Source of the DNA: Candidatus Nitrosotenuis uzonensis
GTDB taxonomy: Archaea > Thermoproteota > Nitrososphaeria > Nitrososphaerales > Nitrosopumilaceae
NCBI RefSeq assembly: GCF_000723185.1
Contig: NZ_CBTY010000001.1
Location: 1 to 64,000, forward strand
DNA: 64,000 bases
Reading direction: 5' to 3'
Shown here in pieces: positions 13,883-48,311 of this stretch. The position numbers and the translations under genes are program-made. The notes under the pieces were generated by a model that worked only from the letters and a program-made list of their open reading frames with translations, searched no databases and was not told the origin of the DNA. Each line of letters opens with the position of its first letter. The first letter of the stretch is position 1.

Positions 13883-13980
13883 GCAGGGGTATCGAAGCCC
13901 GGTCAACCGAGAGGGACTCAAGATCCAAATAGGAAATCCCTTCCCTCAGGGGTTCGTGGGTTCAAATCCCACCCCCTGCA
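13883..13980 (+). tRNA. tRNA-Leu(CAA) with a 13-nt intron
   Basis: Acceptor stem GCAGGGG/CCCCTGC with discriminator A, T8 and A9, three-pair D stem TCG/CGA, anticodon stem AGGGA/TCCCT, loop CTCAAGA with anticodon CAA (13919-13921), 14-nt type II variable arm, T arm GTGGG-TTCAAAT-CCCAC. The anticodon stem only closes when 13 nt (about 13923-13935) after G37 are removed; this leaves an 85-nt class II tRNA, the normal size for Leu. The intron sits at the canonical archaeal 37/38 site. CCA is not encoded. A T-run follows directly. Confidence 0.93.
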
Positions 13981-45895: not shown

Positions 45896-46015
45896 TCCCA
45901 AGCGAAGGAATTGAACCTTCGACACTCCGGTTTCTGTGTGCCTAGTAGGCTGATTTCGGTTAGCCAATGGCCGACCACTACAGCCGGAAGCTCTACCAGG
46001 CTGAGCTAGCTTGGG
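45896..46015 (-). tRNA. tRNA-Tyr(GTA) with a 46-nt intron
   Basis: Minus strand. Acceptor CCCAAGC/GCTTGGG with C1-G72, the archaeal Tyr identity pair, discriminator A; D arm GCTC/GAGC; anticodon stem TCCGG/CCGGA; loop CTGTAGA with anticodon GTA (45981-45979); variable loop GTGTC; T arm GAAGG-TTCAATT-CCTTC. The anticodon stem closes only if 46 nt (45977-45932) after G37 are removed, leaving a 74-nt tRNA. Intron at the canonical 37/38 site. CCA not encoded. ATTAAATAA about 30 nt upstream. Confidence 0.94.
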
Positions 46016-46779: not shown

Positions 46780-47190
46780 ATGAGCAAGCCTGCAGAACTT
46801 GGTTCACTAAAGATAGGCTCTTACATACTTTTACCAGTGGCGGATCAGCCAACTGGAGAGCCGTGCAGAATAATAGAATATGATACAAGCAAACCTGGAA
46901 AACACGGAGCAGCAAAGGCAAGGATCGTAGGTGTTGGTATATTTGACAATCAAAAGCGTCCGCACGTCAGTCCTGTGAGCCAGCAAGTCCATGTGCCACT
47001 GATTGACAAGAGAACCGGCCAGATAATCTCAATTACAGGCGAACAGGTCCAAGTGATGGACAATGAGACGTTTGAAACAGTCGACGTGCAGATGATAGAT
47101 GACGAGGTTAAAGGCAAGCTTGAACAGGGTCAGATGGTCGAATACTGGAAGGTCATGGACCGAACCAAGATAATGCGAATCAAAAGCTAG
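46780..47190 (+). CDS. eif5A: Translation initiation factor 5A
   Basis: 136 residues. N-terminal SH3-like domain with the hypusination/deoxyhypusine loop KPGKHGAAKARIVGVGIF, modified lysine K41, and a C-terminal OB domain (~75-136). Relieves ribosome stalling at Pro-rich and other motifs and aids termination. Leaderless monocistronic transcript. Confidence 0.97.
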   Translation: MSKPAELGSLKIGSYILLPVADQPTGEPCRIIEYDTSKPGKHGAAKARIVGVGIFDNQKRPHVSPVSQQVHVPLIDKRTGQIISITGEQVQVMDNETFETVDVQMIDDEVKGKLEQGQMVEYWKVMDRTKIMRIKS

Positions 47191-47358
47191 ATTCACTCTC
47201 ATATCTGATATTCTGCTTGACAATACATAACGCAAAACTCCAAACATAGATGTGAGCAACGGACTCATTATGGCACGATTTCTTGATGGCTAAAGCAAGG
47301 CTCAGGCAAGCCGATTTACATACCGTATGATAGCCTAAAGGCATTACCATACCTTGGA

Positions 47359-47487
47359 ATGCAAGATACTCGTGAACGGCAAGTTCTCATTTGGCAAAAA
47401 TGCTCGGAAACTTGTAAAAAAAGAGAATTTCTTCAGGCATGCAATGAGATAAAAACCACACTTTTAATCTCTTGTAACTCTATCTGA
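47359..47487 (+). CDS. Possible 42-residue Cys-containing protein
   Basis: ATG-started ORF in the gap between eIF5A and the C/D RNA, four Cys (QKCSETCKK...QACNEI...ISCNSI) in a mostly charged, helical sequence. No clear promoter or ribosome-binding site. Could be chance; called only as possible. Confidence 0.25.
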   Translation: MQDTRERQVLIWQKCSETCKKREFLQACNEIKTTLLISCNSI

Positions 47488-47495
47488 ATAAATAA
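47487..47495 (+). promoter_or_regulatory. TATA box of C/D box sRNA
   Basis: AATAAATAA centred about 26 nt upstream of base 47517, the predicted RNA 5' end. Confidence 0.55.
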
Positions 47496-47516
47496 CGCGT
47501 AATGCCTGCCCACCTT

Positions 47517-47582
47517 GGATGCTGATGATGAGTTGGAAAAGCCATCTGAGCGTTGATGACGATTATGAGTGATGAGGCATCC
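47517..47582 (+). ncRNA. C/D box methylation-guide sRNA candidate
   Basis: 66 nt closed by a perfect 6-bp terminal stem GGATGC/GCATCC. Inside: C box ATGATGA (47525-47531), D' box CTGA (47546-47549), C' box TTGATGA (47553-47559), and a D-like ATGA (47572-47575) before the closing stem; canonical D would be CTGA. Guide lengths (14 and 12 nt) suit archaeal C/D RNAs that direct 2'-O-methylation with fibrillarin, Nop5 and L7Ae. The D' guide (GGAAAAGCCAT) predicts a target ATGGCTTTTCC methylated at its fifth base. A TATA box is at the right distance. Confidence 0.7.
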
Positions 47583-47627: not shown

Positions 47628-48311
47628 ATGAATCTTGCAGCGCTCTTTTCTGGAGGAAAAGACAGCACATTTTCAATATACAAAGCACAGCAACTAGGTC
47701 ATCAGGTAGTCTGTCTGATAACAATAATGCCTCAGTCAGCTGAAAGTCATCTTTTACATCATCCAAATATTGGAACCACGGCACTTCAGGCTGAGTCTAT
47801 GAATATTCCGCAGCTAATCATCGCATCAAATACTGAGGAAACACAAAAAGAGACTGAGCTGATAAAGTCGGCATTAATTGAAGCAAAAACAAAATACTCT
47901 ATCAAAGGAATAGTTCACGGCGGGATACTGAGCGAATTTCAACGCTCCAAGTTTGAAAGTGTGGCAAAGGAACTCGAACTTGAAGTGATTGCGCCAATAT
48001 GGAGATCTGATCAAAAACAGTATATGCACCAGCTGGTGGACCTTGGATTTGAATTCATAATAACATCTGTTTCATGTGATGGCCTTGACAGCTCATGGCT
48101 AGGCAAAAAAATAACAAAAACCAATATTGCAGAATTAGCATATCTTTCGGAAAAATACCACTTTAATCTAAGCTTTGAGGGAGGAGAAGCCGAAACATTC
48201 GTACTCAACTGTCCTTTATTTCACTGGCCAATTGCATTGGAAAAGACACGGTCAAGCTGGGACGGATACCGTGGAACCATTGAAATACTCCAAGCAAAAT
48301 TAGAAAAATAA
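47628..48311 (+). CDS. dph6: Diphthine-ammonia ligase (ATP-PPi loop)
   Basis: 227 residues. Makes diphthamide on elongation factor aEF2 by amidating diphthine. N-terminal PP-loop FSGGKDSTFSIYKA, GGILSEFQRSKFE and C-terminal FEGGEAETFVLNCPLF are the family hallmarks; single-domain archaeal form without the C-terminal Rid-like domain of the yeast enzyme. Its stop overlaps the srp54 start by 1 nt. Confidence 0.94.
   Translation: MNLAALFSGGKDSTFSIYKAQQLGHQVVCLITIMPQSAESHLLHHPNIGTTALQAESMNIPQLIIASNTEETQKETELIKSALIEAKTKYSIKGIVHGGILSEFQRSKFESVAKELELEVIAPIWRSDQKQYMHQLVDLGFEFIITSVSCDGLDSSWLGKKITKTNIAELAYLSEKYHFNLSFEGGEAETFVLNCPLFHWPIALEKTRSSWDGYRGTIEILQAKLEK

Follow-up and report, generated by a model that had tools for sequence, protein, structure and literature searches.

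The initial annotation of the 64,000-nucleotide window from Candidatus Nitrosotenuis uzonensis, i.e., of the whole stretch of DNA analysed here, proposed a box C/D sRNA gene at positions 47517-47582 in which only the D box deviates from the consensus. This raises the question whether the gene represents a genuine member of this RNA class and which cellular RNAs would be methylated under its guidance.

Architecture and conservation of the sRNA gene

The gene lies on the forward strand, has a length of 66 nt and reads GGATGCT G ATGATGA GTTGGAAAAGCCAT CTGA GCG TTGATGA CGATTATGAGTG ATGA GGCATCC. It is composed of the 5' arm of a terminal stem (GGATGCT, 47517-47523), the C box ATGATGA (47525-47531), the D' guide with the core GGAAAAGCC (47532-47545), the D' box CTGA (47546-47549), the C' box TTGATGA (47553-47559), the D guide CGATTATGAGTG (47560-47571), the variant D box ATGA (47572-47575) and the 3' arm GGCATCC (47576-47582). 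The C (RUGAUGA), D' (CUGA) and C' boxes, the guides of about 10-14 nt and a total length in the range of 60-70 nt correspond to those of archaeal box C/D sRNAs, and the coordinates proposed before were found to be exact. The closing stem, originally given as 6 bp, consists of six Watson-Crick pairs plus a final U.G pair, i.e., 7 bp, the last of which is U-A in many relatives. The succession of a stem, the 3-nt bulge GAT and two G.A steps is the standard C/D arrangement of a kink-turn. A search for C, D', C' and D-like boxes combined with a closing stem gave a single hit in the window, and 150 random windows generated by a first-order Markov model gave none. Folding of the single sequence gave a z value of -1.96 and was uninformative, as expected for C/D RNAs.

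A BLAST search with a 121-nt query detected homologues in 38 of 61 close genomes, and the matches mostly span the sRNA alone. The covariance model R1 found matches in 184 of the 250 genomes of the order, and a class-wide sample added 14 more genomes with a homologue outside the order. Within the alignment A1 of 24 homologues, the D' box, the TGATG core of the C' box and the core of the D' guide are invariant, while the D guide is nearly invariant and the C box is conserved with an ATGATAG variant in one clade. The terminal stem is paired in 99.4% of the alignment cells and four pairs show changes on both sides; one clade carries the stem GGGTCCT/AGGACTC. Shifting the stem by one column in a sliding control reduced the pairing to 39-51%. 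This control is free of the problem affecting shuffle counts, which overstate the significance of the stem, because related sequences are not independent. The covariance model also picked up further C/D-like sRNAs with other guides, namely L177 in G197, L217 in G239 as well as L167 and L168 in G054.

The D box differs between the homologues. Among those with an A-type D' guide, TTGA (22), ATGA (18) and GTGA (1) were found, while those with a G-type D' guide carry CTGA (19), CCGA (7), ATGA (7) or TTGA (2); in family f8 the D box is CTGA or CCGA, and the family of the N. uzonensis gene itself shows TTGA or ATGA. The deviating ATGA was thus correctly noticed before, and its sequence distribution identifies it as a shared lineage trait rather than as decay, because the variant is common to the family homologues. 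Moreover, ATGA retains the GA that is needed for the sheared pairs, and a family that is conserved can belong to the box C/D class in spite of a non-canonical D box. The idea of a chance motif or a decayed C/D pseudogene could refer to the ATGA in place of CTGA and to the Rfam search at gathering thresholds, which did not report the sRNA at 47517-47582, but it is hardly credible given the conservation in relatives, the compensatory changes in the stem, the spacing of the boxes and the wide occurrence of the variant D box. The loss of the C/D boxes in relatives, which had been named as one of the observations that would speak against the gene, was seen neither in the alignment nor in the covariance search, and the boxes that are kept refute the chance and pseudogene reading.

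The TATA-like element GAATAAATAA (47486-47495, forward strand), a putative promoter, starts 31 nt upstream of the sRNA. This offset of -31 is shared by the AACTAAAATA-like box that 16 of 30 homologues carry, often overlapping there with the end of the aIF5A frame. Hence, the assumed distance of a TATA box stood the comparison, whereas its identity as such a box stood only in part, because GAATAAATAA matches the AACTAAAATA-like consensus only weakly in the N. uzonensis genome.

Predicted targets of the two guides

Complements of both guides were sought among the rRNAs and tRNAs of the same genome (14 contigs, 1,636,125 bases), as suggested by the initial annotation, and were found in the 23S rRNA and in the elongator tRNA-Met. 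Among the 39 tRNA matches of the genome, the best partner of the D guide is the tRNA at G000:C9:180404-180506. The duplex comprises an uninterrupted run of 10 Watson-Crick pairs and an additional G.U pair, and the wobble base C34 faces the fifth guide base counted from the D box, i.e., in N+5 geometry. As read here, this gene encodes elongator tRNA-Met, because removal of an intron, which we placed between G30 and A31, leaves a tRNA with the anticodon CAU, a G1-C72 pair and an anticodon stem unlike that of an initiator. The comparison covers the tRNAs recognised among the matches, to which the initiator does not belong; another tRNA with the anticodon CAT at C9:330506, probably tRNA-Ile2, was rejected as D target with 8 paired positions versus 11 for the elongator. 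The CACTCATAATCG-like sequence predicted before as partner of the D guide therefore was the right complement and resolves to the anticodon loop ACUCAUAAUC of elongator tRNA-Met. All relatives examined share the target sequence, whether or not an intron is present at that place, and one genome (G025) has a D guide with one mismatch to tRNA-Met. Two intron-bearing tRNA genes in the window were missed by ARAGORN, one for tRNA-Leu(CAA) at 13883-13980 (forward strand) and another, probably for tRNA-Tyr, at 45896-46015 (reverse strand), which only the search of the whole genome revealed.

The D' guide complement, previously predicted as ATGGCTTTTCC, was likewise correct and resolves to GGCUUUUCC of the own 23S rRNA, with which the core GGAAAAGCC forms 9 bp, while the outer AT does not pair; the two bases next to the D' box are thus left unpaired. 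Within the target context CUCGAUGUCGG[C]UUUUCCUAUC the bracketed C is the N+5 base; the site GUCGG[C]UUUUCC adjoins the peptidyl transferase centre and the base corresponds approximately to E. coli C2510, counted by hand from A2503-U2504-G2505. Judged by its length, a match of 9 bp is modest. Stronger support for a 23S target comes from the comparison across families, in which the guide and the rRNA differ in step at one variable position. The rRNA has U and the guide A in those genomes of family f1 in which both sequences were read, while rRNA C is combined with guide G in G038, G039, G043, G047 and G048. The exception is G054, which combines guide A with rRNA C, and the matching change probably represents a single evolutionary event. 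A group I intron was also noticed in the 23S rRNA gene (L032, G000:C8, about 399054-399340, minus strand, near E. coli position 1931; RF00028, 68 bits), which by its coordinates matches the published archaeal intron IB4.1 with the accession CBTY010000008.1 (PMC6125680).

Collectively, the sites that are very probably methylated under the guidance of the sRNA are the wobble position of the tRNA-Met anticodon and a 23S rRNA site near the catalytic centre. After transcription, the C/D and C'/D' motifs would recruit L7Ae, Nop5 and fibrillarin, the latter two being encoded side by side in the genome. In the assembled complex, pairing of the D guide with the anticodon loop would lead to 2'-O-methylation of C34, while the D' guide, paired with GUCGGCUUUUCC beside the peptidyl transferase centre, would target the C around E. 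coli position 2510 for methylation. We regard it as highly likely that the gene encodes a genuine archaeal box C/D sRNA acting on these two substrates.

Guide turnover, gene neighbourhood and alternative readings

The two guides differ in their persistence, since the D' guide has been retained in families that lost the tRNA-Met guide. Scanning the N. uzonensis RNAs as a proxy, the new D guide of family f16 matches the anticodon loop of tRNA-Leu(CAA), that of family f4 matches 23S ACCUCGAUGUC and that of G054 matches 23S CUCGCCUAU. These exchanged D guides occur at L170 (G051), L171 (G039) and L028 (G054), with C34 of tRNA-Leu(CAA), 23S ACCUCGAUGUC and 23S CUCGCCUAU as the candidate targets from the proxy scan. 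In seven homologues (L011, L013, L014, L019, L027, L029, L030), a GGCTTTTC-like sequence of up to 10 nt, the reverse complement of the D' guide, was noticed just 3' of the stem, no more than 20 nt from the sRNA 3' end. It may represent a terminator, a guide-masking trailer or chance in T-rich DNA. Such a trailer was rejected as a general feature, since just 9 of 55 distinct 3' flanks contain at least 7 nt complementary to the D' guide within 20 nt (none in the next 20) and the N. uzonensis gene has no such trailer.

Upstream of the sRNA lies a gene at 46780-47190 (forward strand), which we take to encode the translation factor aIF5A. Downstream follows at 47628-48311 (forward strand) a gene with an SGGKDS motif, presumably for a DPH6-like diphthine-ammonia ligase, and then presumably the gene for SRP54. 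The order aIF5A - sRNA - DPH6 - SRP54 is found in most members of the family and wholly or partly in other families. The gap between aIF5A and the sRNA amounts to 326 nt in N. uzonensis (47191-47516) versus roughly 0-120 nt in other members of the genus, and a spacer of 45 nt separates the sRNA from DPH6, without overlap. In seven genomes from two families outside the order (L246-L252, L263-L265), the DPH6 frame is open from an ATG inside the D guide and runs through the D box and the stem, for example as GATT-ATG-AGTGATGAGAGG translated to MSDER...SGGKDS. Similarity to DPH6 has been confirmed in three of these seven (37-40% identity), with SRP54 as the next gene. A guide directed against a CAU anticodon necessarily contains AUG, hence, an overlap with the DPH6 start codon may speculatively have been favoured.

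This neighbourhood leads to the question whether the element could act mainly in cis, as an L7Ae-bound kink-turn leader of the DPH6 mRNA and not as a free guide RNA. The long-lasting proximity to DPH6, the start codon inside the guide of the outgroups and the regulation of translation by L7Ae that has been proposed for archaea (PMC5539422) would fit such a role. It is nevertheless very unlikely, because a cis-acting role would not need the guides, each of which pairs with an RNA from its own genome in the correct N+5 geometry, and because the genomes of family f8 (L266, L267) keep the sRNA without an adjoining DPH6. More weight, albeit still that of an improbable case, may be given to a genuine C/D sRNA that guides methylation of tRNA-Met C34 only, with an orphan D' half or one directed to another target and an incidental 23S match. 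The tRNA-directed sRNAs of Pyrobaculum with a second guide lacking a target (PMC7994747) represent a precedent, and the shortness of the D'/23S duplex and the exceptional G054 point in the same direction. However, the core of the D' guide does not vary within the family, the guides of other families agree with the rRNA, and some of the replaced D guides match 23S sites near the D' site in the proxy scan. Our data thus favour the dual-substrate guide. Its extension to the whole class appears evenly balanced, i.e., that the D' half is fixed on the co-evolving 23S site while the D half normally addresses the tRNA-Met wobble base but has been swapped in some families to tRNA-Leu(CAA) C34 or nearby 23S sites, and that the gene is linked to DPH6 with its start codon inside the guide of the outgroups.

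Relation to known guide RNAs

For Pyrococcus and Haloferax, an sRNA guiding the formation of Cm34 in tRNA-Met is already known or has been predicted (PMC2584109; PMC7994747), including the Haloferax volcanii tRNA-Met box C/D sRNA of Joardar et al. 2011 (cited in PMC6601510), and such guidance has been demonstrated in humans (PMC6601510). Like Pyrococcus sR49 and the H. volcanii sRNA, the RNA described here is a stand-alone C/D sRNA placing C34 of elongator tRNA-Met at N+5; it differs from both in its other guide, which matches 23S rRNA. In Haloferax a part of the intron joins the pairing (PMC2584109), whereas in N. uzonensis, by our reading, the exon contains the whole core duplex A31-C40, and relatives with an intron-less tRNA-Met keep the guide. 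Human SNORD97 and SCARNA97 address the same wobble base (PMC6601510), but they are eukaryotic RNAs. In being aimed at the peptidyl transferase region of 23S rRNA, the D' guide resembles archaeal dual-guide C/D sRNAs described before (PMC4644070), and a text search of that paper did not find the site around E. coli C2510. Box C/D sRNAs overlapping the 5' end of a gene, with its start codon inside the guide, were described by Tripp et al. 2017 (reviewed in PMC7994747), and in a reporter assay a 5' overlap lowered the expression of the gene downstream. The class-level outgroups with the start codon inside the guide are alike, while the N. uzonensis gene shows no overlap.

Given the Cm34 guides already known from Pyrococcus, Haloferax and human SNORD97, the N. 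uzonensis sRNA is mostly expected, well supported biology. What is unusual is the use of one RNA for tRNA and 23S rRNA, a modest departure from the pattern in Pyrobaculum, whose tRNA-directed sRNAs were reported to carry a second guide that lacks a target (PMC7994747), as well as a guide that in the outgroups contains the start codon of DPH6. The open-access literature searched offers few descriptions of box C/D guides from ammonia-oxidising archaea, and small RNAs are not mentioned in the N. uzonensis genome paper according to a text search (PMC3835317). The present sRNA is conserved across the class and has two nameable candidate targets with testable bases, so that the predicted joining of a tRNA wobble modification and an rRNA modification in one RNA is directly accessible to experiments. 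Finally, its homologues form a natural series, with one guide retained and the other exchanged, making the turnover of guides directly testable.
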